Source: Hirudinaria manillensis
Taxonomy: Eukaryota; Annelida; Clitellata; Hirudinida; Hirudinidae
Assembly: GCA_034509925.1 (NCBI GenBank)
Contig: CM067531.1
Coordinates: 6,281,319 to 6,345,318, forward strand
Length of the DNA: 64,000 nt
Reading direction: 5' to 3'
Position numbers and translations under genes: made by a program. Positions 22,124-62,400 of the stretch are shown piece after piece. Position 1 is the first letter of the stretch; every line of letters starts with the position of its first letter. The notes beneath the pieces are model-generated. The model made no database searches. It had not been told where the DNA came from and saw only the letters and a list, made by a program, of their open reading frames with translations.

Positions 22124-25100
22124 CTAAACTTTGTTGGCTTCATTTGCACTACTTCTGTTGGGTGAAAGTGCTCCTGCATAAGAGGGAGGGGCATGACCAG
22201 CTCTAATTGGTTTAACAATGGTAGCAGAATGACCTCTTCTCAGCAAAGTCTTTTGTCTCACTGCTTCCTTTATTCTGTCAATTTCTTGTTGGTACCTTAA
22301 TACAATAGCACAATACAAAACAATTCGATGAACATTTCTTGTTGATCTTTACATTTGCAATTTGATTTAAAATATCAGGCAAAAACAACCATGAACTTAT
22401 TAAACTTAAAGATCGTGCTTGAAGAAGTTAAAGGAAAATAAAAAAAAATAATATAAAGAATTTAGAAAATACTCTTTTATTTGATGAAGTTTGTTACTTT
22501 TCACTCAAAATAAAAGGAGACATTGGCAGAGACAAATTTGCTCTTGAAGCCAGTCTTGGAAAGTGCACAAACTTGTGATAAGGTTGGTATGCAACCAATT
22601 TCCCTCCAAGGACAGTTTACAGAGGTGGGCTTTAGTGGGAGACACCAAGTGTAGACTCTGCGACAGAGCCACGATATTGCATGCGCCCTTGCCAAAGTTT
22701 GGAAGAAAAATATGCAAATCTATTGATGGACCACTCATCAAAAGATTACTAAACTTATTTCTTCCCCATCAAAGTTGGTGCATGGATCAGGTTCAAAAGT
22801 CAACATATGCATTCCTCCCCCAATTGATTTGTCTAGCAATAAGAAAAACAAGAGCTTTTTTTGTCTGAGGATATAAAAATGGCCTCTTTCTGGATCGGGT
22901 ATATGAGTGGCCAAAAGAAGTCTTTGGAGATCGTGCAGAAGGGCTGGAGTAAGTCATTTACTTATGGTCTCAGTGGTGCCAATTCATCAGCCAAGAGCCA
23001 CAGGAGTTTCAAATTGCCTAAACTTTCGAAGATGAAATACCTTCTCTGAGAAACCATGTTGGTAAGCTCTAAGGAGGAGTTTCTTTTAACTAATTACTCA
23101 CTATGCTAATTAGCATGCAGTTCAACTCATTGTTTTATGGAAACATGCTCTCCATATAAAAATGATTGAGAAAGCCCATGATTTTGAGATATGCCCATTT
23201 GTTGGCACTAAATTGCAATTTTTGTTTAATTTTGTAATTTTAATTAGTAACTTGATGCTCCATAGAAATACCACCATGGTAGCATGAAAAATAATTTTTT
23301 CCAAGAAATTTTCAAAACCATCCTGAGGCAAAAAGATGGCAGAAACTTTGTCAAAAATTGGTGATGCAGGGACCAGAGCTACACATTACAATTTGGAGAT
23401 AACAGACTGGAAACAACAAAAATCAGTATTTTGCTATTATAAACAAAACAAGATACTGTTATATAATTAAAGATCAATCCATAAAATTCTAAAAACTTTA
23501 CCCTACCCTGTTACATTCAACACAACAGGGTTGTTCATTAGAAAGTATGGGATTGATTGTTAAGTTTCCATGAAGCAAACTAGCACATGAGCAAAGTGTT
23601 TAAAAAAAATATAAAATTGATTTTAGATTGCATTTGTTATATTGGTTTTAAGACCTAACTCATACCTTTTTCTGTCTTTTAAAGCTCCTTCTTTAGCTTC
23701 TTTCAGAGCTGTTTCCAGTGCTCTTATGCGATCCATGGTGGCCTTTAATCTTTTTTCAAGCTTTGGTAATTCGCAACGCAAGTCTGCATTGTCTCTGACA
23801 AGCTACAAAGAAATAATATGATTTAATAAGACTTAAATAAATAATATCTTGAACTATGAATAAATGATGGACTCCAAAAAACAGATCCGGCTGAGGCCGG
23901 ATTTCTAAAAATGAACTAAATCAGTACAATGGACAATCACGAATGACTTTTTGAAAGTTTTCCTTTTTGGCTTTCCAAACTACTGGCTCCATCTCTCCAA
24001 CTCAAGTACTTGTTGGGTCACACTAACTTATGTACTAATGACCACAGCTTACGAATACTCAATCTTCACAGACTCCAAAGAGACTAAGTTGAATAGTAAA
24101 TTTTTTAGGGAACAAATTTGTAAAAGTGTGACAAAAACCTCAGACAATTTATAACAACTATCAAGAAACAAACAACAGAATTGGATATGTTGGAGCTATA
24201 TTTAACTACCAAACTATTTCTAATGAAGCCAGACTAAAAATCCAGCATATCCCTATTTCAAATTAATATCTAGATCATAAGTTTCAAATAAAATATAAAA
24301 TTGAATTTCTACTAATCAGTTTTCATTTGACCTGTTTATGAACTTTTGTGAGTTGATCCAAATTGCTTTCTAAGAAAGATATCTTCTGTTTTTGCACAGA
24401 GGTGTTGAAAGTAGCCTCATCATCATCCTGGTTTGCCTGTATCTGACCACATGAAAGCAAATATCTTAACATGACATTTTTCAAGTGCTTTGTTCAAAAT
24501 CAATTATTTCTAAATGGCTATATATAAAATAAGCTAATAAAGCAAAATTATTTATCATGTGAGAGAGTTACATAATTCTTGCCAAGTTATAGCACATCTT
24601 TCCAAAATTTTCAGCTGAAAATCATTAAATGTTTCCACAACTAACATTCCTACTAGGAATTTCCTATGACTTATAAAGTTAAAAATAAATTTTTTGCAAA
24701 TCTTAATAAAACTAGACCTACCATAATTATGAAACACAGATAGCCATAAGCAACACATTTAACAAACATTCACATGACTTACGTTGTGGAATGACCAGAT
24801 TATTTAATTAAAATACCAACCTTTCTTACTTTATCTTCCAGGTCAGTGATAAAAAGTTTGCGGAGACTATGCAAAATTTGCAGATCTTTGGCTACAGTCT
24901 CTTCGAGTCCTTTAAGATCCTTTGCGGCTTCTTCCCTCTTTTCCAGATTCCATCTGAGTTCCTTCAGTTCTGATGTCTTCTTTTGTTCTTCAGCCACCAA
25001 TGTTTCATACTCACATTGCAACACATTCAATGTGATTTTTAATTCATCTACTTGCCTATATTGCAATAATTTTTCAGTATCAAAACATAGTCATTAATAT

Positions 25101-28100
25101 TTTGCAAATCATGTTTAAGTGACAACAAATGTTGAATATGAGAGTATTCATATAATCTGAATTTAAAAAACTTTAAAAAAATCTCTATGATGAGTTTATT
25201 TTAGAATATATATTTTATCAAGCATATTTGGTCAAAAATGTAATCCCAAACTATCATGAAACTTTAAATTGTGTAGCCACAAATTGTTAATAAAATTTGA
25301 GATATTTATATATATATATATATAATTTCATGATAGTTTGGGATTACATTTTTGACCAAATATGCTTGATAAAATATACCTGTATCTGAAAACATGCAGA
25401 TTGTGATGGTCCAAAATTTTTTTTTTATTTCTTTAGATTAGAACCCACCATTGTGATTTACCATAAAAAGTAAGTACATAACTACTAAAATTCTTTGCCA
25501 GATGTAACCAATAATTTCATATCCTCAAATGACAGGTTTTGTGATTGTTTATCAGATGAATAAACTTTCCAGATGAATTGAATTTGATTTTTTTTAAATC
25601 CCCATCTAAACCCCAGCCTTTTGCCAGGGCCATGGGTGTAAAAAGGATTTGAGCTGGGGTCCCTGGTTGATTGCTAGACCTGTGTACTTGGTGTTGTATC
25701 TAAGCTGAGAAAGACTTGATTCATTCAGCTAGGCTAAAGCATCATTAGTTCGCATTTCTCTCAGTTAATTTCACAATATAGACTTATATTTATTATTTAT
25801 AATTTATATTTATATTTAGAAATTAAATGCAACAAGAAGCAGACTAAAGACTTATAGATCTCACACCTCAAAACTCTAACAACCTTGCAAATCAAATTTC
25901 AATTTTCATACAAATTCACTCCAGTTCCTATTACTTGTATGGTCATTGATTGGTGGGTTCCAATCAAGAAAATTACAAAAAATAAATTTTGTTTCCATAC
26001 ATTTTTGGACCACCCTAGTGTAGATGGATGCTAAAGTGATAAAATATTTTAATCTGGATCTGTTTTAAAGTTAAAATTGATGGCCAAGGAGCAGGAATGC
26101 TACAAGAGCCTTTGCATATAGCTTACTGGGTGAGTATTCCATTCAATTTTTCTTTTTCAGAAATATCATTTCTGAACTCCGAAATTTGTAACTGGTGTTG
26201 CTTGTGATGCAACTCCATTTGCTTCTCTAAAGCTATCTTCATTTGTGTGGTGGATGCCACCTCGTGTTCTTTTTTTTCTAGATCTTCAAGTTGCACCATG
26301 TACATTTTTTCTGCAAGAGAAAAATCAATACAAGTCTGTACAACAGGAGAGAAAAATAGTCAAGGCTTTGATCCCTACTTAACTTTATCATTTCGTGCTT
26401 TAAAGTATTTACATATCTTTCTGTATTCAAAAAATAATATGACTCTCATCCCCAATAAGACCCCATTTTGGATTCCAGAAATAAAAATTTCCATGGATTC
26501 ATTACATAACAAATGATAACAGGAATATTTAGGAAGCAAGACATTAGAAGACATTATCATCAACTTGTGAAGAGAATAATTACTGAACAAAACTAAATAA
26601 ATCTCGATTATTTGTATTGAGCCTCATCATTTATTATTATATTAAGCTGCACGATGGTAACATCACATTATAAGACACAGTTAACATTATGTGTCATTAG
26701 TGGTTTGTTCTAGGATTTTAAAAAAAGATTCACATCCCATATGGCACTCAAACGATCAAGATAAGTATAATAAAAAAAAAATTGAAAAGGAACCTTTAGT
26801 CTTAAGTTGAGAGCAGTTTTCATTCAAGTCATCAATTTGTGTCTCTAAAAGTCTCTTTTTCCCTTCCATATCTCGCAAAGATTCAAGCAATGTTTTCATT
26901 TTTGCCTCAACCTGCAAAATAAAGAAGGCCTTACATGGTTTCAGGGAAGAATTTAAATCCAAATTTTTACCTGTTGAATGATGAGTCTGCTATTAGCCAG
27001 ATCTTTCTCAGAACATTCAAACTTTTTATTGGCTTCCAAGAGTTTAGCATCCAACTGAGAACATTTTTGAACTATCATCTTAACTTCAGACTTCAGTTTA
27101 GAGAACATCAGTGGCACCATGCTTCCATCATCTCCCTGCTTTTCAAAATTTTTGTAGAGCTCCATCTAAAGCAATCATTGAATACATGAGTGCCAATGTA
27201 ATGTAATGGTATGTATGTAATATTAGTGTACAATATTACTGTGTAGTCTCACTCAATGCATGTTATAGAAACACACATGGCAAAATTGGTAGTTGTCTCA
27301 TGACAAATGACAATTTTTAATTTTATTATTTACACTATACATGGTTTAATTACTGCAAAACCTTGGCCACCAAAGAATTGGATAGAACCTGTACTTAAGC
27401 CCATTTTTTCTTATTTTTTTCCTAATATAATTTGAGGCTAATTTACAATTCACCAGACAAACTTGACTAAAGGGCATGCCAAAATGGTCTTTTGAGGTTT
27501 TCTATTTTCTATTTTCTTTAGTTTAACATATACACCTGATGAAAATCTCAATATTTCTTCTATGCAAAATCTAGCTGTCCCTATAAACTAGGTTTTATAG
27601 TATTTGTTTGGCATTATATTTTAACATTATTCTGAGTTCCAAGGAGATCTTACTCAGTCCATGAACAAGGCAATTCAATCGGTCAAAATGGGGACAAACG
27701 AAGGCGGTCCCATTCATGTACTCTATCTCACTCCCTTTCTCCAAGTGATGATAGAGGATCAAGGTCAAGAAGTTATCACAGACGATACAGGAGTAGATCG
27801 AGATCAAGAAGCCATGACAGATGCAGATCTGACAAATACGATGATAGGAGGAGAAACAGTAGGAAGTCCGTGTCAAGAAGGAAGAAGCATGCTGATGATA
27901 AGGAAGAACAAATTGCGAAGTCAGCAAGACAGAGGGAATGGTGTTGGCCATTCGACAGAGGCAAGTCGATGGTAGAGGAACACTCTCAATAAGACGCAAT
28001 GCCAAAACCAGCAAAAAGATCCACACGCCATCGCAGTCCACCTAAGCGTCTCGTGATCGACGCAAGCAAGAAGATCTATAATTATATATGAGGGGGAGGT

Positions 28101-31100: not shown

Positions 31101-34100
31101 TTGTTGAAAAATGTTCAAATTAACCTTGAGCCAAACAAAAGGGTGGATTTAGTTTCTGTCTCATTAAATGATGCAGGTGAACAGCATATAATCATAGTGG
31201 TTCTTGCATTTCCCCCTAAACTTTCTTGTAGTATTCTGGTCAGTTTACTATCTCTATATGGCACAAATCCCTTAAAAAATGAATGTCAAAATATTTAGTG
31301 CCAACAATATTATTCAAATGACTCTAAGACATGGATAAGAGATTTTTACAAATTATGTGAAAAGGATTAAAACATTCAAACAAAGCACATCAAAATACAC
31401 ATCATTTTCAATAGGTGAAAATTTGTACATTTTATATATTTAATCCCATGGATAGCACATTTTACATCCAGAAGTTTGAATTAAACGTTGTGAATTGAGC
31501 ATCTCAAACCTAAACTGTATTGTAAGAGCAGATTAAAAGAAATGTGACATTAACAAGTCACGTATTAGTAGCAAATGGTTATCACAAATTAACACACATT
31601 AATTGTAGAAGTCTTTTAAGATGGCAAGTATAATCATCAATGTAGAGATTGCATCCATAAAGTCAAAAATAAGCCATCTTGTTGCACTTGGAAAAAGTAT
31701 GGAGAAATCTAGGAAAAGAATAATGTTAAAACCCTGGCCTTTATTTTGTCACTAATTAATTTCTAACAGTGTTTGTACAGACTCATTTTTATATGGACTA
31801 ATTTTTATATTTGCAGTTTTTTTTGTAGTAATTACAGTAGTACATAAGATACTAGTGTAATAGCATAGTATGAAATGCCAAGTTGATAATAGATGAGCAT
31901 TTCATTTCAGTTCATGATTATTACCCTTTCACAACACTACTGATAATTTTTTCACTGGCATAGCAATAGCTAAGAAGCTAAAACAGAAAGAGGAACTGAC
32001 AATGGTCTCAAACATAGAAGAAATGTTAAAGCAATTAAATGTGCAATGATTGTAAGCTATGATAAATCTGATTATTGATAACTAGGTTTTATTCACAACA
32101 AAAACAAAGTTTTGCCGCTAAACATTCATCAATGTTTTATTAAGTGTGATACTAATAAACATTCATTTATGAATAATTTCTGGAAAATATCAATAGTTAA
32201 ATATATACAAAAAGTATACAGATCTGGCAGTGGACCTGGAAGTAAAGGGGTTCAAAACTGACTGGTGCAGGGCTCAATAAATATTTTTAAATGTAAGGGC
32301 AAGGTGGCTTCGCTTCAGTAAGGTAGTAAAGCGACGAAAGAAGCCAACAACAGCTTTTAGTAGCTGTTCCAGTCTGGCAAGTGACTTCATAAAGAGGCCA
32401 AAGAGAGCCTTCCATAGCCGAAAGTACTGGAGTCCAAGCTGATCACCGGATGCGGCCCACCCCCGGAGAACGTCAGGGTTTTCAAAGGGCCGAAGCCTTT
32501 GAAGATGGGAGACCTCCTCTGAGGAGAGCTCCGAGAAGGAGTTTCTAACATCTAACACCATGTCAGTAGATCATCACATGCTGCCTCTTTTCGATAGCTT
32601 GTTTTCAAAAATATCCTCCTTACACAAATACTCTGTTCGAACGTCTAATAATTATAGACCGACTTTTGCTAAATCTGTCACTGGCTCTCGTTCTATTGTC
32701 TGTATGGGACCAAAAATTTACTCTGCTGTCCCGCTTAATATTACCAACATTTCTAATCTTTATGCTTATAAGAAAGCATTAAAACATTTTATTATTAACT
32801 CTATCGGATTAATTTAACTACATGTTATTGTACTATATTTATTGTTTAAAAACATGCACCTTCTGATTAATGGAACCATTTAATTATATACCATCATTCC
32901 TAATTTTTTGTGTTAACTTTTCTGCTTATTGTGTTTCATGGGTCAGTCTACTAGCGGAAGCATGTGCTTCCTTAAGGCTGGCCCTTTGAGTTTTATTTTT
33001 TTTTGCTGCTCTTTTCAGTTTTTTGTGTTAAATGAAGGAATTAGTATAATAATAAAACTCAATTCAAAAAAAAAAAAAATGTTGTAGGCACTGCCATATG
33101 GCACTGTTGAATTCAACAAATGTTTCATGAAAAATCTCAATAGAGCTACTATGAGGTACATTGGGATTTAAAAAGATGAACATTTATCTTGGTCTAAGGC
33201 ATTCAAAATCCTCTTTCTAACAACTAGCCCTAGGTATTATTCCTAGAATCCAATCAAAAACTGCACCTCTATTATAATTTTCTTCCGAATTATCCAAACC
33301 TCACATATTGCACTATCATAAAGACCTCTACTCAAAACTATTATTTGCACCAATTAACCGTGTTATTAAAAGTGGATTATTTGAATTATCTTTTTATTAT
33401 TGCCTTCATCTTCCACTGTCTCCAATAATTTGTTAAATGTATCTCAAATTTGTAACTTACAAACAACATTCTTCATGTTTTCATATGATTGCAATTCACT
33501 TCCTAAAATATTTTCTTTTTTTTTTAAATCAAGTAACAACTATAATAACTACACTCACCCAAGCAAGACCTTCCAAGTAAATTCAGCTACAAATGAGTGT
33601 GACTACATCAAAGATTGGGAGCAAAAACATACTTGGTGAGAAAACAGTAATGAAAAGGGATTCGATAAATTATGCAATAAAAAGCTTTTTTGTGCCATTG
33701 GGGGGGTATAGAATAAACAAGATGGAAGCTGTACTTCTGACACAATAGAAACTGCCAATACATTCCTCAAGCATCTTCACTAAAATGGCACCATAAACTG
33801 TTCTCCTCAAACATTCTATTGCAGTCTTGAACAAAGCTCGTTCCAAACGGCAGGAGCGGCTTGTAAAAAATCTCTGTTGATGATGGTCACCCTATGGACC
33901 GGTCGATGGAGGTTGATGGTGGCAGATGAGCGGAGAATAAATTAGTCCTTTAGACCGATGAGTTTCCAACAAGTTATGAGTCCAGCACCAAGAAACTAAA
34001 TTTGGAAGATTCTGGATTTGATTGATGTTTATTTTTTTTTAGCACAAGTTCAACCCATACTCAAGAAGCCCACCCTCGACCCGCAAGCACCTTCATCGTA

Positions 34101-37100
34101 CCATCCAATATCGAATCTAAGCGTCATTTCAAAGCTTCTTGAATGCCTAGTGCTTAGATGCCTCCTTTTCTACCTCAACAGTAATGCACTTTTTCCCAAC
34201 ACTCAGTCTGCCTATAGACCGCATCACTCCTCTGTGTGCATATTTGATGGTTGCAATGACAAACCAAAAGGATACAGATTAATTTACCCTGTCACAAAAA
34301 GACTGCAAGAAGCTAGAGATGTTGTCTTCTTTGAGACAAAATTCATGTCAACTGACAATGCCTATCCTTTTTCATCTCAAGATGGAAGATGAATCACAGG
34401 AATTCACAAATGTCATAGCAAGAAAGAATGAAAGATGAACCACAGGAATTCACAAATGTCATAGCAAGAAAGAATATCCCTCAAATACATGATTGCCTGC
34501 AAGTTCCCACTGAGACGAATACAACACAGTGGGACAGCATTTTTTATGAGGCAAATGATATTGAATCTGTTGTATCTTAAATTACTTGCTATATCATTAA
34601 AGACTACTTTGGGAATTGGAGATACTAAGCTGTTTTATTACTGAAATCGTGTTATCATACTAGCCTCCCAAAGACTCTGAATATTATCGTAATAAACTTT
34701 AAGTAATAATAAATTCTTACAATATTATTACATTATCCGCAACAGAATCTGAAATGGATGATTCAGAAGCATCAAATGGAGAAAGACCTCAAAAGAATGG
34801 AACACTCAATAGAAAGATCTTCAAATTGGCAGCTCAATACATGTGATGGTGATGAATTGAAGATAGAAAACAGATTTATAAATTTTCTTGTGGACAGGTT
34901 TTGGATTCATTATATTGATGAGAATGAAAAACTTGCAGCATCCTCGTGTCCTTGATTTAGTGATATCCTCAAAAGATAATGTATCAAACATCTGTTATTT
35001 TTCACCTTTGGGCAGAAGTGATCATTGTGTCATTGGGTTTAATATCAATATCGAGTTAAAAATTGCAGCAGAACATAAAAAAATAACTTTTGAACTTGCA
35101 AACTATGAGAATTTCAACAATGTTTTAGGTGATGTCTTGTCTGCTGGTTTGTGAGATGGCACTTTCAGAAGGTGATTGGAGGTCACATAATCCTCAACAA
35201 GAGGCCATCAACACAAGCTATGATTGGAATATATCATAGGTAGTGTCCCACAGCGGACAGCAGACAATCCAGCAACCAGCATGCAAAACCACCTCTCGAC
35301 TCGGCCCGTAACTTGAAGAGAGTACAAGGGCCGCTAGAGGATTTTATATGCAACGACTAAGTCAAATGGCCACATGGCAGTACCAATGGTCAAAACCAGC
35401 CAATCAAGAGCTCACTCGGCTCAACCAATGGGAAGACTTTAGACATAGCTCCCTGAAATGTTAGTGCAAATGGCAGCTGCACACCTCAGCTCCACCGGCA
35501 GTTTGAGTTTGACTGCAAGAAATATAGTATTTGAAGGCCATATGGTATGCAAGGCTGAAGGTCTTGTATGCATTCGTGATCGGTATCATGGTAGTAAGCA
35601 AGAGAGAGGGAGAAGGCAGGTTTTCAGAAGGCAGGACTGACAGGAACATCCATCTGGGTATGGCCTGGCCCCAGGGAACATCAGAGGTTCAAGGGCCAAA
35701 ACGTTCATAGATGGGGGCTACCTCTCTGAGGATTCCTGTCAGTACTTGTCAAGAGTATCAATTTATTTTTGTATTTACACCCAGAATACCTCCCTTTTGA
35801 ACTGCTGTGTCGATGTACAGATGTGACAGTAGAGAAATTCAGGACTGTCTAAGCCAAGTGCCCCACAAAACCTAAGGAATCCAGGTGGCAGACCGAGAAG
35901 CTTAAAGAGCAAACAGAAAGTCTTTTGCAATAGATGGAAAAGGTTGGATGAGGCTGAAAAGGCTGGTCTGATGCTACTATGGGAAGAGATTAAAGGAAGA
36001 ATAAATATCCTTTGTCAAGCGGAAATTGTCGAGGATGCAAATCCTCTGAAGATCTCTGCCAGAAAGCTCATCCAAGAGTTTCAAATAATATATTACATAA
36101 TTCATTCATCTCAGAATTATAGAAATGCTTTTGCCAAATCCAACATTAAATCCTTTTATATGGAACCAATAACATATTCTAGGATTCCAATATATATTAC
36201 CAACCAGCCAAATTTATGAACATTCAAACATCTACTTAAACAGCTAATCATTGAATGAATTATTAATCTAATATTCTTTGCTTCAACATTTATTCAGCTG
36301 GAATTTTCAACATTCAACATGAGAATTTTCCTTTAGGATGTTTTCCCACAATGCTATTAATTGTGATTATTATATTCATATTTATGTGATTTGGCCACTC
36401 ATCAATAAAAGAGATTTATGATAACTTTTGCCTCTCAAAACCTCAGAAACAGTCTCTCCCAGGCAAAAAGGAATGTGATAGAGAATCAAAAATAAACATT
36501 AATGAATCCATAAAAATGCTTTGAAAATTTCTAAACACGGCTGCTGATATAAAGAAAACGCATACAGTGATACTGAATGAACAATATTAATAAAGGATTC
36601 AATATATTAATTGTTGTGATGCCCTAGTTGAATGAGTGTTCACTTTTGGTTGTGGTTATGTTGACTATTGACATGAAAGAACACAACGTACTGCCCTCGC
36701 GCGACAACCTACAACGATGGAGGATGGCACAGAACACTGAATGCGCTCTCTGTGGAGAAAGACAGATGCTCCTTCACGTACTGTCTGGGTGCAGTTACGC
36801 CCTGGCTCATGGCCGCTTTACGTGGCGTCACAATTAGGTTCTGCTGGGCGTAACCGAAGCCATCAAGACAGCCTGCTCCAGCGCCAACGCAAGAGAATCA
36901 GTTCCACAAAGAACGACATACTTCCTACGAGAGGGTACCTCCCAGTTTGCAAAAAACAGATTTTAACAGATTAGTCAAAAAGGAGCCACCTCCTCGAGAT
37001 TGCCAACGACTGGGAGATAGCGGAAGATATTGCAGGGTTGAGGCACTATCCCCAGGTGCTAGCAGAAAGTGGAAAAAGGCCGGACATTGTACTGTTATCA

Positions 37101-40100
37101 ACGAAGGCAAATGCACTCATCCTGGCAGAATTGACAGTGCCCTGGGAGGATAGGATGGATCTTAGCAACAGTCTGAAGGAGCAAAAATACCTGGACCTAA
37201 CGATGGACCTCAGACAGAAGGGGTACAGGGTTTGGAGCAAGAGGTGGGAGCAAGGGGACTCATCGGAAAGTCTACCTACGCGTTCCTGCGAGAGGTCAGA
37301 CTAACCAGTAGTGCCAGGTCAAAATCCATGGTGAAGATGTCCAGGGCTGCTGAGGCGGCGTCGCAGTGGATATGGTCAAAGAGGGACACCAGGTAGTCTC
37401 CCACGGAGAACCATCGACCACGACAATCCATCGACCAGTGCTCAAAACCACCTCTCAACTCGATCCGCAACTCGAGGCGAGTATAAAGCCAGCTGAAGGC
37501 TTTTATAGGCAACGTCCGAGTCGAAAGGTCACACGGCTGTACCAGTGGCCAAATCCATCCAACCAAAAGCTCGCCAAGCTCAACCAATTGGAAGACTCCG
37601 GGCATAGCCCCCTGAAAGGTCGGCGCTAATGACAGCTATTTAAGCTCTGTACCTGAGCTCCGCTGGCAGTTTGATGTCGGTTTCGGGAGCAAGAGTTGTA
37701 ATGAGCGAGGGGTGCGTGGTATGGCGATGGTCTCGTATGCGCATCGTATTGTGGGACAAAGAGAGAGAGAGAGAGGGAAGGCAGGTGTGCAAAAGATTCG
37801 ACCGACAAGAACATCCCCCTGATCAGCGGGTGTGGCCCGGCCCGGAGAACGTCAGAGGTATAATGGGCCGAAACGTTTGCAGATGGGGCAACCTCTCTGA
37901 GGATTCTTGTCGGCACTTGCACAGAGTATCAATTTCTATTTCCACAACCTGGAGATGGGGAATTTCTGAAAAGTCAGCTTTTGAACATTTGGAGAAAGTC
38001 ATTCAAAATGATGTTCAATTAGCACATTTTTATAAAAAATGCCCATAGGCATTGCTTGTGATGCATCAAATGTTGTTATTGGTGTATAAAGAGGGGAATG
38101 AAGGACCTGTAGCTAATGTTTCCAAGAATGACTGAATGACTCAGCGATGATATAGCCAAATACATAAAGAGGCTCTCGACATAACCTTTGCATTACAAAA
38201 GTTTCATAATTACATTTACAGGAAATTCATTTTGATTACAGATCATAAACCTTTGATGAGCATATTTAACCCAAAGAAAAGAATTCGATCATGGCATTGA
38301 ATCATCTTGCAAGATGGGCCATATTGTTAAATCAATATGAATATGTAATCAAATTCTGGGAAACTGCAAAGCATGAGAACGCAGATGTTTTAACTTGCCT
38401 CTCAATCAGAGAGGACGCACTATTTGATGCTTATATGAAGAGTAAAATGATTCTTATGTGTTTTTAGTTAACACCATTAGAGAACAAATGGGATTCACGG
38501 ATGCTAAAACATTGATTAAAGAATCAAACAAAGATCCATTTCAAGCTTGATGAAATATATAAAAGAGGGTTGGCTATAGAAGATTGAAAACGAGTACATA
38601 AAAAAGTACAAGAACCTTGAAAATTTTCTGTGAGTTGAAAAGGGTTGCCTGATGCATCCACAAACTAATGGAATTGCACTAAGATTGGTGCAGACAATCA
38701 CTGAGAAAATTTTCTCTACCTCCATGCTGAGCCCTTCAAGAATTTTTATGCAATCTGGAGACTGATTACTCACCAAGTGAAATTTTGAGAAAAAATTCCA
38801 CAGAGCCCATGGAATCAGCTAAGTCAGTGGAGCCTACGGATGTTTCGGCTCCATTGGAGATAACAGAAGGGAGTGCTCGGGATTTCGGGAGTGATTGGAG
38901 AGTGCCTAGCATGGAAAGTGGAGCAGGTGATCCTATAGAGAGTTTGAGATCTGGCGACATGGTGGAGCAGGAGGGTGAACATGGAAGTGGTGATGTTCCG
39001 CAACTGAAACTTGCGGGACACAGGAGAAAAAGGGAGGAAACAGAAATCCAAGGAAATGGGAGACAAATAAGAAGCAGATTGGATGCTATATTACCGACAT
39101 TTGTGAACATGATGCCCAGGCCAAAAATAAGAAAAACTTATTTAATTTCTCATTTACAACAGGAATGCCCTGTTACACAAAACATTATGGACACCTGAAT
39201 GACCGGGAGCCTAAATGGTCATACTCCCACATTCCTTGTCTCAAGGTACCACACTGTCAAGTTTGGTGACTGCTCCTTCCATGTCAATGAACCAAAAACA
39301 TGGAATGCTCTCCCATTTACATTCGAAAAACAGCCACAACTGAGCTCTTTAATAATCAACTAGACACATTTTTTTAATCAATGCTATTCTTAACCAAGTT
39401 AGACTACTTTTAGGAGCAAAAGGACCAGAGAAAGCCACAGATCACCGGTCAGAATAGAACCACCAAGGTAATTCATCGCCCGAGAGGCACGGAGCCGGTG
39501 GAAATTTCGGTTACCGTGCGCTGCTTTAAAGAAAATTTAGAGCCCAAGTCGATATTGTTGGGTGGCAGGGTTGACGGAAAGAAGACCACTGAGAGTCGTA
39601 GGGGCTAGGTGGCTTCGCTTCAGTGGGAGAGTGCAGAAAGAAGCCAATGAGAGCTTTTAATAGTTGCTCCAGTCTGGCAAGTGACTCCAGCCAAAGAGAG
39701 CCTTCCAAAGCCTAAGCTCTAGAGTCCGCATATGGAAAGCCGACAGGGACAGCCGATCACCGGATGCGGCCCATCCCCGTCAGGGGTTTCAAAGGGCCAA
39801 AACGTTCGAAGATGGGGGATCTTCTCTGAGGATCCCTGTCAGAAAGCTCCGAGGAGAAATTTCCATCATCATCATCTTTATTATAATTATTAATTGCTCT
39901 AACTCCATATTCTTAAGTTTTTTAATTGTTTTTGTTTTTATTCAACGTATTTCATTTTATTGTATTTGATTGTCTCTTAGTGCTATAAGTGTGATGTAGT
40001 GCCTTAACATCCTAGGACTTAGGATAAAAAAGATATTTAAATATTTGCTGAATGAATATGAATACGAAATGGATTCCAATGACTATGGCGGAAGTTCAAG

Positions 40101-46100: not shown

Positions 46101-49100
46101 GTCAAATATTCTTTCTGCAATAGGATCATAAAGCCATGGAATGCACCATCAAATGAAATTGTTAACTGAAGTACAATCTCTCGTTTTAATGCACAACTTT
46201 GACTTCAATAGTTTCTTAACATACCTGATTATCTCTTCCATTCAGAGCTTGTGTTGTACTTTTTGTATATAAATTGTATAGACTTGTGTTAGTGGTCTCA
46301 AGGACCCTTCAGTTTGATGTTTAAATATATAAAATAAATGAATTAAAAAAGTTTAATAATTAATTTAAACAACAGGATCCCATATCTGCTCTACAAGAGA
46401 TGCCTAAGAACGCTCAAGCTGCTCCACACAATAATAGTTTCCACCTGGGCCAATGCCGCAGTCGACAACAAATGGAAAGTAGCGGAAGGTGTGTACATTC
46501 CGAAAGAAAAGGAATCGAAGCACATAAATCAGTTCAGGCCTATTTCGATGTTGAATGTCGAAGGAAAAATCTACTTCTCATGTCTAGCAGCAAGGCTGAC
46601 TATATTCATGACAACAAACAAGTACATCGACACAGCAGTTCGAAAGGGAGGCATCCCAGGTGTGCCGGGGTGCATTGAGCACACCGCAATGATATGGGAG
46701 GCGATCCAGAACGCAAAAAGGAACCAACTCAGTTTACACGTCGTGTGGCTCGACCTGGCCAACGCCTATGGATCGGTGCCCCATCAACTCCCCGGAAGAC
46801 GTTAGAGATCCACCATGTTCCTGGAATGGTAATTGAGGTACTCAAAGAATACTTCAACAGTTTCATGATGCGTTTTCCCACGAAAGATTGCACCACGTGT
46901 TGGATCCCTCTGCAAATCGGCATAGCCATGGGATGTGCCATTTCCCCATCGCTGTTGGTGCTTGCCATCCAAGTCGTACTAAATGCAGTAGGGGCTGAGA
47001 TGCGCTTGGGTAGAGGGGTGTTTATGCCTTCAGTAAAGGTTTTCATGGACGACACCACCATCGATCTAAACAGGCAGCAGTTTGTCCAAAGAGCCCTTGA
47101 CAAGCTAAATGATCTACTCCAATGGTGTCGCATGGCTCTGAAGCCTGCAAAATCCTGGAGTCTTTCTCTTACAAGAGGGAGAGTTTGCAGCGAGGTGTGC
47201 TTCACTGCCAGAGGACAAAGCATTCCGACGGTCTCAGAAGAGCCAGTAAAGAGCTTGGGAAAGGTTTTCGACGAGATCCTCCGCAACAAAAACCAGGAGG
47301 CAGCCACTGTCAGTAGGATGACCGATGGTCTGAAAGTCCACAGCGAATGTGCAGACAAAAACTGCCATGATAATCCAAGAGAGAAGGCGAGAGATGGAGA
47401 TCGAAAGGATTGCGCTGGAAGTGCAGAAAAGCCAGCAAGGACAGTGGACGACCTGGGAAGACTCCATCCACAGATCCATCACATGGAAAGACATTTGGAA
47501 AAAATCTCCCCTCTGCTTGGCATTCCTCATAAGGTGCTCCCTTCTGGGTCCAACTTACAGGAGTGGGGGATGGTTCAAGACGCCAGCTGCGAGCTCTGCG
47601 GAGGTGCACAGTAATCCGACACGCCCTTGCTTAAGGTCACTACACATGGTGACATAACCAGGTCGTTGTCGAGGCGGCTAAGACGGCATGCTTCCAGGCA
47701 AATGCCCAAGAAATCGCGGCACCAGGAGAAGGTGCCTCTTTAGAGAGGGCTCAACACAGCACCACAAAAGGAACATGGGCCAAAGGAGGGACTTGCTGTC
47801 CACAGCCAAAGACTGGGCAGTTGCGGCAGAGCTGCAGGGAGAAAGGCACTACCACCAGGTGCTACAAGAGAGAGGCAAGCGGTCTGATTTGGCGCTGGCG
47901 TTGGCAGCAACCGATTCCGTCATTATGGTAGAGCTCCCATGAGAGGACCGAATGGATGTCAGCAATGCTCTGAAGAGCAACTGTTACGAAGAGCTGATGA
48001 TGGATTTAGAGGGGAAAGGTTATAGCACCCATGTGTTGCCAATAGAAGTCGGAGCGAGAGGGCTGGTAGGCAAGTCTACCTATGCCTTTCTCAGGAAGAT
48101 AGGCCTTTCAAACAGGCTAACCAAACAGTTCGTCCAGAGAATAGCCGAGTCCGCAGAATCGGCTTCTCATTGGACTTGGACCAAGAAGGACCAAAGGTAA
48201 GCCTCAGGCACGGCGAGGCAAGTCATCCCTGTCCACTCCACCAAAACAGGGACTCCAGTTTAAGGTCTCCAGGAAAGAGACATCCCGGACGAAATGGTAT
48301 AAGAAGTGCTGCAATGGCGTCTTTGACAGTTTTTCAGATGGCGGAGCCCTCGCGGAATTTTTCGTAAAATGGCGGTGCGAGTATTGCTTGTTTGTCGGAA
48401 GTCGTTGTCTGGTTACCGGAAGAAAGAATCTGGCAGGGACATCCGCTTGGTCAATGGATGTGGCCCAGCCCCCGAGAGTGTCAGGATTCAGGGCCAAAAC
48501 ACTTGTCGAGGAGGCCAATCCTCTGAGGATCCCTGCCAGAACGCTCGTTCAAGAGTTTCAATCAATAATAATTAATTTAAATCATTATGATGTCCTTGTC
48601 AAAAGAAATATTATGGAAAATACATTTTTATGCACAAATGAAGCATCAGTCATATTTACCAAATATCATATCTACATTTATTTTTGGAATGAGAAATACC
48701 CCAACCCAAAATAATGACTATTTTTCATAAACTTCTGCTTTATCACTAAAATTCATATCCGTTAACCTGCATGTATTTTAGGCTAAAAGTCATCACGGAT
48801 ATAGCACCATTTAAAATTTCAAAGAATATAATTTGTATCATACAGAATTAACACCCACTCGTTACTGCCACATGGCGATTAGCTTTGCCTTCTTCGATGA
48901 CTTCCATGACTTCCTCAGGACTGGCAACGAATCTTTCTGTGGCACCCTAAAATGCATGTTTAATGGATTTCATTAATCTCTTACCTCATTTCTGTCTTTC
49001 ACCTTCATTTGTTCAGTTTTAATAAAAGTTTTTAACCTTTACATATGGAACTCTGTTTTTGTCTTCATGGACTGATAAATTTGTTTGAGTAACTATCAAA

Positions 49101-56710: not shown

Positions 56711-56822
56711 TCTGACAGGGATCTTCAGAGGAATGGCCCCTTCTACGAGTGTTTCGGCCCTGAATCCTGACACTCTCGGGGGCTGGGCCGCATCCGTTGA
56801 TCAAGCGGATGTCCCTGTCAGA
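56711..56822 (-). ncRNA. Conserved 3'-terminal RNA module, copy A (hammerhead-like core in pseudoknot order)
   Basis: Reading the minus strand: outer helix UCUGACAGGGA (from 56822) with UCCCUGUCAGA (to 56711), 11 bp. Hairpin CAUCCG/CGGAUG. Helix CGGCCC/GGGCCG. GAGUGU pairs with ACACUC (stem III equivalent) and is followed by the GUC triplet (56771-56769). AGGAUU pairs with AUUCCU with one mismatch (stem I equivalent), directly followed by CUGAAGA (56728-56722). GAAA is at 56755-56752. All three hammerhead core strands are intact, but the strand order gives a pseudoknot, unlike a standard hammerhead. Role inferred: recognition of the RNA 3' end by the element's RT, possibly with self-cleavage. 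Confidence 0.7.
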
Positions 56823-57059: not shown

Positions 57060-59477
57060 TTACCTTCGGTCCTTCGTTGTCCAGCTCCAGTGAGAAGCCG
57101 ATTCTGCGGACTCGGCTATTTTCTGGACGAACTGCTTGGTTTGCCTGTTTGAAAGGCCTATCTTCCTGAGAAAGGCGTATGTAGACTTGCCTACCAGCCC
57201 TCTCGCTCCGACTTCTATTGGTAACACACGGGCGCTATAACCTTTCCCCTCTAAATCCATCCTCAGCTCTTCATAACGGTCGCTCTTCAGAGCATTGCTG
57301 ACATCAATTCGGTCCTCCCATGGGACCGTCAGCTCTACGATAATGACGGAATCGGTTGCTGCCGACGCCAGCACCAGATCAGGCCGCTTGCCGCTCTCTT
57401 GTAGCACCTGGTGGTAGTGCCTTTCTCCCTGCAGGTCTGCCGCAACTGTCCAGTCTTTGGCTGTGGACAGCAAGTCCCTCATTTGGGCCATGTTCCTTTT
57501 GCGGTGCTGTGTTGAGCCCTCTCTTAAGAAGTACATTCTTCTTGGTGCCGCGATTTCTCGGGCATTCGCCTGGGAGCATGCCGTCTTAGCCGCTTCGACC
57601 ACGACCTGCAGGACTTGGTTATGTCGCCAAGTGTAGCGACCGTGAGCAAGGGCGTACGTGCATGATGAAAGCACGTGCCGGAGTGACTGTTCACCTCCGC
57701 AGAGCTCGCAGCTGGCGTCTTGAACCATCCCCCACTTCTGTAAGTTGGACCCGGAAGGGAGCACGTCGTAGACCGACCTTATGAGGAATGCCAAGCGGAG
57801 GGGAGACTTTTTCCAAATGTCTTTCCATGTGATGGATCTTTGGATGACGTCTTCCCAGGTTGTCCACTGTCCTTGCTGGCTTTGCTGCACTGCCAGCGCA
57901 ATCCTTTCGGTCTCCATCTCTCGCCTTCTCTCTTGGATTATCATGGCGGCTTTTGTCTGCACATTCGCTGTGGACCATCTTGGAAAATGGTTCCATCCGA
58001 CTCCATGGCGGTCTACCTGCACGGGTCCTCTTTTCTCCTCGAAGGTTAGGATTGCCTCGGATTCCTCAATTTCTTCCTGGGCTCTGAATTTCCTTCCTGA
58101 GCGGAGTTGCGGCATGACGTCGCGGACCCTGCTGTCACTGGAGTTGTTGAGCGACCATTGAGTTCTGATTTTGCTAATTTTATATTCTTCAACGATGGAT
58201 CTGAGGGGCAGCCTCAACCGTGTGCTTCTGCTGTACAGGGCGATCGACGATAGCGAAGGCGGCAACCCGAACCATTTCCTCGTACACCGATTTATTTTCC
58301 TTTCCATCTCTTCTACCGACTGCAGGCCTATTTCGTAGATGGTCAATGGCCACAGCAGTCTTGGTAGCAGGACGAACTGCAGGAGCCAGACTTTGAATCT
58401 GCCCTGTAGCGGCGATTCTGCAATCGCTCTCAGACCGTCGGTCATCCTACTGACAGTGGCTGCCTCCTGGTTTTTGTCGCGGAGGGACACGTCAAAAACT
58501 CTTCCCAAGCTCTTTACTGGCTCTTCTGAGACCGTCGGAATGCGTTGTCCTCCGGCGGTGAAGCACACGTCGCTGCGAACTCTCCCTCTTGTGAGAGAAA
58601 GACTCCGGGATTTTGCGGGCTTCAGAGCCATGCGACACCATTGGAGTAGATCATTGAGCTTGTCAAGGGCTCTTTGGACAATCTGCTGCCTGTTTAGAAC
58701 GATGGTGGTGTCGTCCATGAAAACCTTTACTGAAGGCATAAACACCCCTTTACCCAAACGCATCTCGGGGATCTCAGCTCCTACTGCATTTAGAACGACT
58801 TGAATGGCAAGCACAAACAGCGATGGAGAAATGGCACATCCCATGGCTATGCCGATCTGCAGAGGGATCCAACACGTGGTGCAATCTTTTGTGGAAAAAC
58901 GCATCACGAAACCGTTGAAGTATTCCTTGAGTACCTCAATTACCGTTCCAGGAACATGGTGGATCTCTAACGTCTTCCAGAGGAGTTGATGGGGCACCGA
59001 TCCATAGGCGTTGGCCAGGTCGAGCCACACGACGTGTAGACTGAGTTGGTTCCTTTTTGCGTTCTGGATCGCCTCCCATATCATTGCGGTGTGCTCAATG
59101 CACCCCGGCACACCTGGGATGCCTCCCTTTTGAACTGCTGTGTCGATGTACTTGTTTGTTGTCATGAACGTAGTCAGCCTTGCCGCTAGACATGAGAAAT
59201 AGATTTTCCCTTCGACATTCAATAACGAAATAGGCCTGAACTGGTTTATGTGCTTAGATTCCTTTTCTTTCGGAATGTACACACCTTCCGCTACTTTCCA
59301 TTCGTTGTCGACTGCGGCATTGGCCCAGGTGGAAACTATTATTGTGTGGAGCAGCTTGAGCGTTCTTGGGCATCTCTTGTAAAGCAGATATGGGATCCCG
59401 TTGGGCCCGGGCGCGGAGCGGTTTCTTGCCTTCTTCACGACTCCCTTAACCTCCTCGATCGATGGAGCTGCCTCCAT
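57060..59477 (-). CDS. R2-like retrotransposon polyprotein, RT plus restriction-like endonuclease (805 aa, N-terminally truncated)
   Basis: The open frame starts at an ATG formed at the microsatellite junction. RT motifs: APGPNGIPY (22-30), [17 protein letters not shown] (77-93), [10 protein letters not shown] with catalytic Asp153 (151-160), [13 protein letters not shown] (209-221), FMDDTTI with the Asp pair 255-256, and KPAKSRSLSL (286-295). The thumb and linker include LLWPLTIYEIG and KWFGLPPSLSS. A CCHC knuckle is formed by Cys590, Cys593, His601 and Cys606. The PD-(D/E)xK-like endonuclease has KRPDLVL (697-703, Asp700) and VELTVPWED (714-722, Glu715), then [20 protein letters not shown]. 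The protein would copy element RNA at a nicked target by target-primed reverse transcription. Lacking the DNA-binding N-terminus, this copy is probably not mobile by itself. R2-like is my call from architecture; the exact clade is open. Confidence 0.9.
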   Translation of the reverse strand: MEAAPSIEEVKGVVKKARNRSAPGPNGIPYLLYKRCPRTLKLLHTIIVSTWANAAVDNEWKVAEGVYIPKEKESKHINQFRPISLLNVEGKIYFSCLAARLTTFMTTNKYIDTAVQKGGIPGVPGCIEHTAMIWEAIQNAKRNQLSLHVVWLDLANAYGSVPHQLLWKTLEIHHVPGTVIEVLKEYFNGFVMRFSTKDCTTCWIPLQIGIAMGCAISPSLFVLAIQVVLNAVGAEIPEMRLGKGVFMPSVKVFMDDTTIVLNRQQIVQRALDKLNDLLQWCRMALKPAKSRSLSLTRGRVRSDVCFTAGGQRIPTVSEEPVKSLGRVFDVSLRDKNQEAATVSRMTDGLRAIAESPLQGRFKVWLLQFVLLPRLLWPLTIYEIGLQSVEEMERKINRCTRKWFGLPPSLSSIALYSRSTRLRLPLRSIVEEYKISKIRTQWSLNNSSDSRVRDVMPQLRSGRKFRAQEEIEESEAILTFEEKRGPVQVDRHGVGWNHFPRWSTANVQTKAAMIIQERRREMETERIALAVQQSQQGQWTTWEDVIQRSITWKDIWKKSPLRLAFLIRSVYDVLPSGSNLQKWGMVQDASCELCGGEQSLRHVLSSCTYALAHGRYTWRHNQVLQVVVEAAKTACSQANAREIAAPRRMYFLREGSTQHRKRNMAQMRDLLSTAKDWTVAADLQGERHYHQVLQESGKRPDLVLASAATDSVIIVELTVPWEDRIDVSNALKSDRYEELRMDLEGKGYSARVLPIEVGARGLVGKSTYAFLRKIGLSNRQTKQFVQKIAESAESASHWSWTTKDRR

Positions 59478-62400
59478 ATATATATATATATACAGGTTTA
59501 TTTATTGATATATAAACAGGTAATGGTAATGCCAAGTAATTTTCGTAAACAAGTCAAGATTTACGACGAGGGATCTCTAGTGAGTTCAAACTGTTTAGAA
59601 ATCCAGATTCTCCACTACTTGGCAACATTAGGGCATTTATGGCCTACAAAAACTACAATTTCCCTCTAGTTTTAATTACCTTTCAACATGGAAGGTTTGT
59701 TAGAATTGTATTTTGGAGCAATGGCATTAAATTTGGTCGAGGTTACGGATGAGGGGAAATTTAGGAGGAGAAAATTTTACTTACAGTGGTTGGTGGTGAT
59801 CTTATTTCGCACCAAAAAGTAATCATTTTAATGGGTTTACTAGCAGAAGTAAGCATTTGCTCCCCCAGTGGCGCATGTGAAGCAAGTTCTGGAGTATCCT
59901 TAAGACTTTAAATATGTTGAAATATATTAATTAAATATATAATACTTTTCATTTGCTACGTCTGGCAACTGCTATCGATTAAATAAACAAAGCCAACAAT
60001 CCCAAAATAGTCTCGTGCGGAGAGAACAACGCCTAAGCAAGAAACGATTAATCGACGAAATGAAAGATCTTTCTTAATTCAACTTGTGCTTTTAAACATC
60101 AGCTCATCCGTCTATCCATCTTGACAATATTTCGCTGTGAAGGACTTTTTAACTTCCGACATCTTGGACAATTTCATTGTTGTTCGCCTCTGAAAAGTTG
60201 ATGCCACCGAGATTTCTAGAAACTCACATTTCTTAGGACAAACGTTTAAAACGCTAAGAGATCGAGCATGGCATGGTCACTTAATTTTGTCGACTGTAAT
60301 TGGTTAAGCAGCTTACTTGTAAATAATAAAAAATTCAACCACCATTTTGAATCCAATGTAGCGGTATTGCCCTTATTATCTGGTATGATTAAGAGAATAA
60401 ATGTAGGCATCCGCCCAGTATTGAACACATGTTGTTAGGTGCATGAAGTGCAATCGATGATAACATCAACATTTTGATTTCACATTAAATGACATAATTT
60501 ATTTCTATCCACATGCCTTTAAGTCCCCTTCAAATTTCTTTCATTTCTGTAGAAACAAATTCAAGGTTTTGAACGAGTCCTGATCTCTTCCAGAAACTGC
60601 TATTTTTATTTTCGGCGGTTTTATAATTTAATTCTAAATTAATTTGTTTAATTTAAATCAGATTTATTTAATTTTAGTTTTTCTTTTTTTCATAAATCAA
60701 TATTGCAAACATCGAAAAACTCGATCATAAAGGGGTTTATTTAACAATGAATTCTTCAAAGCGCGTGATCAGACCACACCTGCCATGATGAATGTGACTT
60801 TAAATCTTTTCCGACCTTCCAGTTGCACCATAATTTTGGAATGTTATAAAATAAAATAAATATCTTTTGTGACTTCGAAACCTAATTTAAAATTTACTTA
60901 CGATTTATCTGGCTGCTCCTACAATGAATTCACACGCACATTAACCGACATTATCATAACCTGTTCTTGTCCAACAGATGCATCGAAAATTTACTGATCG
61001 ATCCAGCCAATCAGAAGCCTCCTCATCCCAGGATAAAAATAAATCGAGAGATAGTTGAACTTTAAAATTTCAATTTTCTCGAGTGGTCCGCACAAAAGCT
61101 TCAAAAAGGTGAGTCTAAAGTAGTTGTTTATGATGTTGGAACCTTGCAACTTAATATTTTATCTCTAGAAACTCTGGAAATACATTTCAATATTCACTCC
61201 TAATTGGTGTGTTCTTATCGGGCAATTAATTATAATTTCACAAACTTTCAGAATCTTGAACGGCGAAAATGTCAGTTGAACTTTCTCTCGAGAAAGTGCA
61301 TCAAAATTTCGGTGGGCATCACTCCATTCATTTGTGGCTAGCGATCAGACAAATTTCACAGCCCAAACTTCGCGAATGGGCATTTCTATGAACTCATTAA
61401 ACCAAGCAAGTTCATTTGCTAGTAATAATGTATCTATTTTTGTCATTAATTTTACACTAACTTGTTAAGTGTCATGCATCATTTGGCAAAGTAGAAACAA
61501 TGCACCTGCCCCGTACACGTGTATAGCAGACTGTTCACGTGTTCTGATCGAGATTTCAATTTTTATAAGAAAAAATATTATGCACATAGTCAGTGATGCT
61601 TTTAGCGGACTATTTTAAATAACTGTGAAGGAAATGTCCAATTTGAACACTCGCTTTGAAATCTGTTTTGCATTGTAACGCAGATTTTGTTATGCAGATG
61701 GCGAGGAGAAACTGTCCTTAATATCAGCAAGTAAATCGGAGTTGACTGAAATAACGCTTCGGTTGCTCGTTGATATTATTGGACCGTTCTATGGGGACAT
61801 CTAATCTAATGTAAAACTCATGCATCGACAAAAATTGAAAAATTGAGATCGTCTCTAAACGATGTGAGTAACCAAATTTTAACTTTTAAATTTTATAGAA
61901 ATCGGGTAGTAAAGCGCTGTCCGCAACAAAGTAAACCTGTCATTATGAATTTATCAGTCACTACAGATGTTCCAGATGGATCACATTCAATTCTCTTCAT
62001 GATGACGCATGAGTCGCTTTGTAACTCGACATAATTTTGTCGTGTTCGCAACCCAGCTAGTACTGCCACGAAGCGTCCTCGGGAGAGGTAAACACAAAAC
62101 TGAAAATGGAAAGCACTTCTGGCAATCTTCAAAGGGCGCTACAATGAATTAACTGCCACTTTTGACAAAAATTTTTTAGCCTATCTTAAAATATCACTAA
62201 TTTATACTAACCGGACGTGAAGGCACCGCTTAATCGTTCTGTCATTTGTATAGTACCCCTAAAGTTTAGGTTCGGTCTGGGTATCGAACATGACACAGCT
62301 GTTGCGTCCGTAACAAACGCCTATGTCGACCAACTCGCATGCAAAAGCCTGTGCCGTGAATAACTAAAACTCGGTTACATTCAGGAAAAGTTAATAAGTA

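Follow-up and report, generated by a model that had tools for sequence, protein, structure and literature searches.

What does a covarying, structured RNA do near the 3' end of R2-like retrotransposons? The question is raised by a stretch of 64,000 nt from Hirudinaria manillensis (contig CM067531.1, 6,281,319-6,345,318 of the forward strand), hereafter the window, within a genome of 148 Mb in 23 contigs, 13 of them large. According to the original prediction this window holds five copies of a module with an outer helix and two internal stems whose strands change together, as expected of selection on RNA structure, and the position of the module suggested template recognition in target-primed reverse transcription. 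The helices pair as described, and selection on RNA structure near the 3' end of these elements is supported by covariation above controls; template recognition by the module is, by analogy, possible. Judging by its sequence, the module is likely to be a hammerhead-like self-cleaving ribozyme of the block order S-G-C in the 3' UTR of an R2-like element, which would cut multimeric transcripts. It would process these multimers perhaps into circles, and is possibly bound by the reverse transcriptase (RT) as well.

All five reported copies were recovered, by alignment and by a covariance model (R1), at the same coordinates or a few bases off. R1 was trained on 12 copies and holds nested helices only (stem I and P1, described below, are excluded); it finds six significant matches within the window, the five known copies and a further one at 32426-32536:

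56711..56822, minus strand, copy A, the whole module with its core intact (R1 125.3 bits, E 9.5e-28)
48429..48540, plus strand, copy B, AAAA in place of GAAA (R1 match)
39739..39843, plus strand, copy C, shortened, part of the inner sequence lost, AAAA in place of GAAA (R1 match)
35636..35743, plus strand, copy D, AAAA in place of GAAA (R1 match)
37801..37914, plus strand, copy E, core letters intact, helix h2 shorter by one base (R1 match)
32426..32536, plus strand, sixth copy, decayed (R1 63.3 bits, E 5.9e-13)

GAAA is the reading in intact families, as against the AAAA of copies B, C and D. Weak R1 rows in the window lie at 22960-23063 (E 0.2), at 56711-56822 on the wrong strand (E 0.46) and at 35979-36063 (E 0.62). 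By eye, the stretch 35979-36090 resembles a decayed A-like module, with a 3' half that lacks its 5' half. Family A comprises the copies at 56711 (minus strand) and 48429, and family E the copy at 37801; the one at 35636 is a further copy, D, and copy C at 39739 is a decayed relative of family C. The five are not one recently converted sequence, since they fall into separate families; the two encoded proteins compared, P0001 (family A) and P0002 (family C), are 67% identical.

The architecture of the module in copy A is given below in 5' to 3' order, together with the pairs that show double-sided change; distinct rows are those of alignment A4, which contains 108 matches in 31 distinct rows and 39 proposed pairs in six helices, pseudoknots included.

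56812..56821, minus strand, 5' strand of the outer helix P0, CUGACAGGGA; double-sided change in 8/10 pairs
56791..56811, minus strand, hairpin hpA, with the palindrome UGAUCA in its loop; double-sided change in 2/7 pairs
56785..56789, minus strand, 5' strand of P1, GGCCC; 98.7% paired, double-sided change in 0/5 pairs
56779..56783, minus strand, 5' strand of h2, GCCCC, the outer part of stem III; double-sided change in 1/5 pairs, between G-C and C-G
56776..56778, minus strand, 5' side of a kink-turn-like internal loop; G and A each in 29/31 distinct rows
56770..56775, minus strand, 5' strand of stem III with U16.1 at its end, block S; double-sided change in 2/6 pairs
56768..56769, minus strand, cleavage site predicted by analogy, C17 (56769) / A1.1 (56768)
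56763..56768, minus strand, 5' strand of stem I, AGGAUU; double-sided change in 3/6 pairs, the fifth pair being a U-U mismatch in copy A
56756..56760, minus strand, 3' strand of P1, GGGCC, the nearly invariant partner of GGCCC
56752..56755, minus strand, GAAA (conserved; G12 A13 A14 A15.1), block G
56747..56751, minus strand, 3' strand of stem III, CACUC
56741..56746, minus strand, 3' side of the kink-turn-like loop, GUAGAA; GNAGA conserved
56736..56740, minus strand, 3' strand of h2, GGGGC
56729..56734, minus strand, 3' strand of stem I, AUUCCU
56722..56728, minus strand, CUGANGA (CUGAAGA in copy A), block C; N7 is G or A, and the other letters differ in at most 1/31 distinct rows each
56712..56721, minus strand, 3' strand of P0

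Beyond the helices originally described, the module thus contains hpA, the nearly invariant GGCCC/GGGCC and GCCCC/GGGGC, and its internal helices cross. Hairpin hpA lies between P0 and P1: it abuts P0 without an intervening base and is separated from P1 by one. The loop between stem III and h2 mostly reads (G/C)GA opposite GNAGA(U/A), which we take to be a match to the kink-turn.

In A4, 95.4% of the cells in the 39 proposed pairs (31 distinct rows) are paired; shuffles give 89.0%, and controls with one strand displaced give 36-49%. Double-sided change affects 16 pairs (shuffle mean 9.3) and 101 cells (shuffle mean 31.8), and none of 500 shuffles reaches the observed number of double-sided pairs, of double-sided cells or the covariation score; the measure of further pair types is reached by 25/500. 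These counts, and those of alignment A2, include decayed rows, and the rows are related, which can inflate the comparison with shuffles. A4 was moreover fitted to R1 and therefore leans P0, hpA, h2 and stem III towards the structure, while stem I and P1 lie outside R1. In A2 (MAFFT, 12 rows, not fitted to R1) 96.3% of the cells are paired, against 34-51% in slid controls, and 12 pairs show double-sided change; here the measure of further pair types is reached by 393/500 shuffles. P1 does not covary, having no pair with double-sided change, so that covariation is silent on it. Stem I, with 90.6% of its cells paired, is the weakest of the helices: its fifth pair fails in 7/30 rows and its sixth in 9/30. 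A scan of all 5-bp column pairs on A4 yields 15 that covary, corresponding to registers of P0, I, III, h2 and hpA and to two more (28-84 and 31-56). The minimum-energy structures of four modules (z-scores -2.5 to -3.7) contain P0 and hpA; stem III appears in 2/4 and the whole knot in none, a knot of crossing helices being beyond what such programs can draw. RNAalifold by itself favours a nested structure from which stems I, III and h2 are missing. The nested folds of RNAalifold and RNAfold, which combine P0, hpA and mostly P1 with hairpins that do not covary, were rejected as the structure of the module.

The module is widespread in the genome. The pattern GGCC + GGGCCGAAA + CTGANGA has 176 forward and 153 reverse matches (329 in all, some copies matching twice, and with roughly the first hundred places listed), while the same pattern read backwards has 0 and 1. 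DNA searches of the genome returned at least 41 rows for copy A (best 40 of 355 candidates), at least 40 for copy C (of 334) and at least 40 for copy E (of 251). Seven divergent copies from the pattern list, on which the pattern is silent as to P0 and hpA, were fetched whole and are matched by R1 in 7/7 cases; they keep P0 and hpA in part, with hpA damaged in two (L105 and L109) and mismatches in the P0 of several.

The two internal stems of the original prediction prove to be stems I and III of a putative hammerhead core, both covarying and both in register with the core letters. Amid these covarying stems the single-stranded letters are a single base that separates III from I and follows a U-A pair, the GAA that precedes the final A in the 3' strand of stem III, and CUGANGA between stem I and P0. 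Numbered by what we take to be the hammerhead positions (U16.1, H17, G12 and so forth), the core letters U16.1-H17, G12-A15.1 and C3-A9 are intact in families A, C, E and H, the last of which is described below. Among the 31 distinct rows, A14, A15.1 and G8 each deviate in one row and C3-G5 are missing in one; G12 is an A in 4/31, all reading CAA, as expected of CpG decay. Mean conservation is 0.968 over 12 core columns (position 17 included, N7 left out), compared with 0.864 in the helices and 0.803 in the rest. N7 is G or A and position 17 is C or A in these rows, and N7 and position 17 are the positions that the hammerhead leaves free. Among 39 distinct strings of the matches listed, position 17 is C in 32, A in 6, U in 1 and G in none, and U16.1 is present in 36; four further distinct strings from the pattern list all read GUCA at the site. 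In the pattern set the letters of GGGCCGAAA and CTGANGA are no evidence, because the pattern demands them, whereas position 17, U16.1 and the stems are free. Both CUGAnGA and GAAA, as well as the division into blocks, follow the hammerhead scheme set out in the part of Eckert et al. (2023, PMC10085705) on which we draw.

From 5' to 3' the blocks run S (stem III, U-H, stem I), G (GAAA, stem III) and C (stem I, CUGANGA), and this order, as read for the putative core, is that of type SGC, a non-circular permutation in the scheme of Eckert et al. (2023, PMC10085705). Between stem I and the P1 strand that leads up to GAAA lie 2-6 nt. The module has no stem II that would link blocks C and G directly. 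Instead, the nucleotides that follow CUGANGA form the covarying P0 with the 5' end of the module, and those that precede GAAA match GGCCC to give P1. An extra helix between the other sides of stems I and II, as in type SGC, was not seen; P1, h2 and stem I seem instead to come together in a second junction. Family H carries one extra U between CUGANGA and P0.

How readily could such letters arise by chance? When the window is scanned for the core flanked by two 5-bp stems, copy E is the one S-G-C match, beside a single match of another order; copy A is recovered only once stem I may be as short as 4 bp. First-order shuffles totalling 640 kb contain one S-G-C match and five matches of any order. 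A core match in a single copy is not overwhelming, because shuffles yield matches and copy A needs the shorter stem I; the weight rests on the register with covarying stems in four families. Roughly estimated, and with the two stems given, the required letters and spacings have a chance probability of about one in ten million; this figure is uncorrected for the six block orders and the fifteen or so ribozyme classes, and it rises about fourfold if pairing explains G12. Such pairing is conceivable: the base preceding P1 is a pyrimidine in 30/31 distinct rows and could pair with G12 (the combinations are U-G 14, C-G 12, U-A 3, C-A 1 and A-G 1), and RNAalifold draws the pair, which would lengthen P1 and break the core. 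As to other ribozymes, an HDV-like fold, compared by hand, was set aside since the helix order is unsuited, and the circular permutations of types I-III misfit in order; other orders match at a few different places of the window and in shuffles. Rfam has no match in the window at gathering scores; for five loci at E up to 5 it gives 23 matches, mostly microRNA families on simple repeats, and no ribozyme.

The host element of copy A is truncated at its 5' end and contains one long open reading frame:

57060..59501, minus strand, ORF of the R2-like element with copy A, 5' truncated (PF00078 E 1.3e-23, PF13966 E 2.9e-07)

The ORF encodes a reverse transcriptase, a zinc knuckle and a stretch resembling the R2 endonuclease, and aligns to residues 407-1212 of P0002. 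Pfam finds reverse transcriptase and zinc knuckle in both P0001 and P0002, and their top PDB sequence matches are R2 proteins; the putative C-terminal endonuclease of P0002 was read by eye from its motif, a second stretch of similarity to a PDB R2 protein being weak (i-Evalue 9.9). A single insertion site in 28S rRNA was not found among 90 loci, whose 3' flanks vary and are often simple repeats. The 3' end of many family A copies passes into simple repeats of 2-5 bases, different ones in different copies, as though reverse transcription had slipped at its start or such repeats were the target. A protein search with the C-terminal part gave at least 139 rows of 1118 candidates (138 scored), and eight rows resembling other families were chosen for retrieval of their 3' flanks, the sequence of which was not known beforehand. 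R1 matches all 8/8, seven of them belonging to a new fourth family, H, and one to family A; family H, found blind in this way, keeps the plan of the module, with A at position 17. The module accordingly lies near the 3' end in at least four families of R2-like retrotransposon, CUGANGA starting 41 to 46 bases upstream of the unit 3' end in families A, C and E. In one tandem C unit (L091, G000:C4:10158230-10162400) a stop-free frame leads from the 3' end of the previous unit through the module into the protein of 1232 aa, and the open frame of one A-family row (C11:3265402) spans 2390 aa. Relatives elsewhere were sought in viral_contigs (0 by DNA pattern, 0 by protein) and in genome_contigs, where 15 stretches match a peptide pattern, none of them confirmed; this absence carries little weight because both collections consist mainly of viruses and prokaryotes. 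R2 elements are known from ctenophores, as reported in the parts of PMC5035012 and PMC13188248 consulted for this point.

Within the genome the elements form head-to-tail arrays. The spacing of the modules is almost constant within a family: 3972 bp in family C (as in a series of seven from C4:10158270, with 3970 bp at two further loci), 4020 bp in family E and 3848-3849 bp in family A. Queries crossing the junction from the 3' end of one unit to the 5' end of the next were used to ask whether a unit 5' end adjoins other DNA. For family C (best 40 of 60 candidates) there are 21 junctions at 14 loci with at least 98% identity and four more junction-crossing rows at 97% (with only 6 nt of the previous unit, possibly by chance), 93%, 99% and 83%; none of the rows begins exactly at the unit 5' end. 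For family A (best 40 of 185 candidates) there are 14 full crossings at 12 loci with at least 97% identity, one at 91% and one at 83%, and two rows with only 23 and 34 nt of the previous unit; C11:2873230, which begins at the unit 5' end beside a simple repeat, is the sole such 5' end among the best rows, the start of another candidate (C7:2286992) lying about 18 bases inside the unit. For family E (best 40 of 60 candidates) the 7 junctions are spread over 4 loci; one 5' end is truncated, and none stands alone. In 9/9 arrays that have a 5'-most row among the matches listed, the first unit has a shorter open frame than later ones. One insert, L103, starts inside the P0 3' strand of the previous unit, as if copying had halted at the structure, and another (L027, G000:C2:13585545-13585656) is made up of nothing but the module and 3' tail and lies within a TA repeat. 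Since nearly every unit 5' end found adjoins the 3' end of another unit, the templates of insertion were probably multimeric or circular. Inserts that extend past the unit end into the preceding unit imply a template that held the junction, whether as multimeric or as circular RNA; they would not arise from a transcript of unit length whose 5' end is fixed.

How might a ribozyme bring this about? Stem III, extended by h2 across the kink-turn-like loop, and stem I would flank the cleavage site U-H|, and GAAA and CUGANGA would complete the core. Because hpA joins P0 and P1, which pair the strands flanking the core, P0, hpA, P1 and the core would meet at a four-way junction that may stand in for stem II; the distal ends of P1, h2 and stem I would also converge, and the kink-turn bend would swing h2 towards P1 and stem I. 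The ribozyme of each unit would cut a multimeric transcript once per unit. The cut halves would stay paired and could be re-joined, across units or as unit-length circles, because 26/39 pairs (P0, P1, h2 and stem III) link both halves, and reverse transcription of circles, by rolling-circle copying, would produce inserts exceeding one unit. In the insertions inspected the 3' end is retained past the predicted cleavage site, and cut linear units were therefore not their templates, with the proviso that the loci were found via the whole module, so that copies ending at the site would be missed. The RT may bind the module, as the R2Tg protein binds its 3' UTR element, and might hold it uncut. The hammerhead reading is supported by covariation, core conservation, the blind fourth family, the 7/7 divergent copies and the arrays, and by the in vitro cleavage reported for S-G-C hammerheads. 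The further proposal, that a protein-coding R2-like element spreads via circular RNA which a hammerhead with a split stem II cuts and re-joins and which the RT copies more than once around, making the arrays, we advance only tentatively, as somewhat doubtful.

The reading closest to this account is one in which the module does both, the ribozyme cleaving free RNA while the fold bound by RT stays uncut, so that bound multimers or circles serve as templates. This is a form of the ribozyme explanation and does not exclude it. It would explain why the insertions keep the 3' end past the site and why some cross unit junctions, as templates left uncut or re-joined would do (the loci again having been found by the whole module), at the price of an added assumption; it is a serious possibility, short of being probable. 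Alternatively, unequal crossing-over or end-to-end template jumping, both possible makers of arrays, may have built them in the ordinary way, so that they would tell nothing about circles whatever the role of the module. End-to-end jumping by the R2 RT is known, and the units within an array are near-identical; against this, the junction is identical across loci within a family, and some inserts stop 6, 23 or 34 nt into the previous unit and not at its 5' end, as fits a template that held the junction. We regard such an origin of the arrays as well conceivable, yet not as the likelier case. Unlikely, finally, is a non-catalytic pseudoknot that is bound by the RT of the element in target-primed reverse transcription and whose hammerhead letters are coincidence or a dead relic: an analogous pseudoknotted 3' UTR element is bound by the R2Tg protein in the account drawn from PMC12222951, the encoded protein is related to R2 proteins, the 3'-terminal position of CUGANGA and the R1 matches in all 8/8 flanks of related RT genes would suit it and G12 may reflect pairing with the base before P1, but it predicts neither U-H, GAAA and CUGANGA in register with two covarying stems nor the variability between families of just N7 and position 17, and it needs an extra assumption for the arrays, with which a processing ribozyme accords no less well than a recognition signal.

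If the module is such a ribozyme, how does it relate to known ones? The closest parallel is the type-SGC hammerheads, HRIMA-1 and its variants, of which five candidates cleaved in vitro and which were reported as the first known non-circular permutations of natural RNAs; in the part of the paper drawn on here, the motifs come almost only from metatranscriptomes, and none came from the genome of a known organism, apart from a weak candidate in bacteria that belongs to a different type (Eckert et al. 2023, PMC10085705). The module shares with them the S-G-C order, the core letters, the crossing stems and a short linker, typically three nucleotides there. It differs in that stem II, a direct helix in type SGC, is split over the four-way junction, in the added kink-turn-like loop and outer helix on stem III, and in its residence in a retrotransposon of a chromosome-scale genome. 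With the 3' UTR elements of R2Tg and R2Bm it has in common a pseudoknot, a place close to the 3' end and a host element that encodes a related protein, whereas the helices there are others and no hammerhead letters are described in the part of PMC12222951 used, and the module is without an Rfam family. With retrozymes and hammerhead-bearing Penelope-like elements it shares one ribozyme per head-to-tail unit, and the model of RT-copied unit-length circles; as far as presented in the part of PMC7761336 consulted, those are short non-autonomous or Penelope elements with circularly permuted types, unlike the protein-coding R2-like unit of about 4 kb and the non-circular permutation seen here. The HDV-like ribozymes of the R2 5' end likewise reside in R2-type elements, where they process the co-transcript, according to the part of PMC3774820 on which we rely, but the fold of the module differs and it occupies the opposite end. 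Among the titles and abstract beginnings listed for open-licence papers, none describes such a ribozyme in an R2-like element, and in open-licence full texts the type-SGC hammerhead was met in its source paper alone.

If the module does cleave, a non-circularly permuted ribozyme would be present in some hundreds of copies in a chromosome-scale genome, in an element with intact genes in which its role can be studied, and would represent a new way of building the hammerhead core without the ordinary stem II. Cleavage could also help to explain the long head-to-tail chains of elements, and would offer LINE-type elements a testable route to the use of circular templates.

A few observations stand apart from this. 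The palindrome UGAUCA of the hpA loop occurs in 27/31 distinct rows (window 56791-56811 and other copies) and could allow loop-to-loop pairing of two modules. Another tandem array lies at G000:C6:6436375-6461391, where six places about 4980 bp apart contain part of the C-family 5' region only. Within the window, 16870-16966 and 32935-33031 are inverted repeats of 97 bases, 100% complementary and 16 kb apart, and 25209-25378 is a near-perfect inverted repeat with 61-base arms and a 48-base spacer, which resembles a small foldback element.
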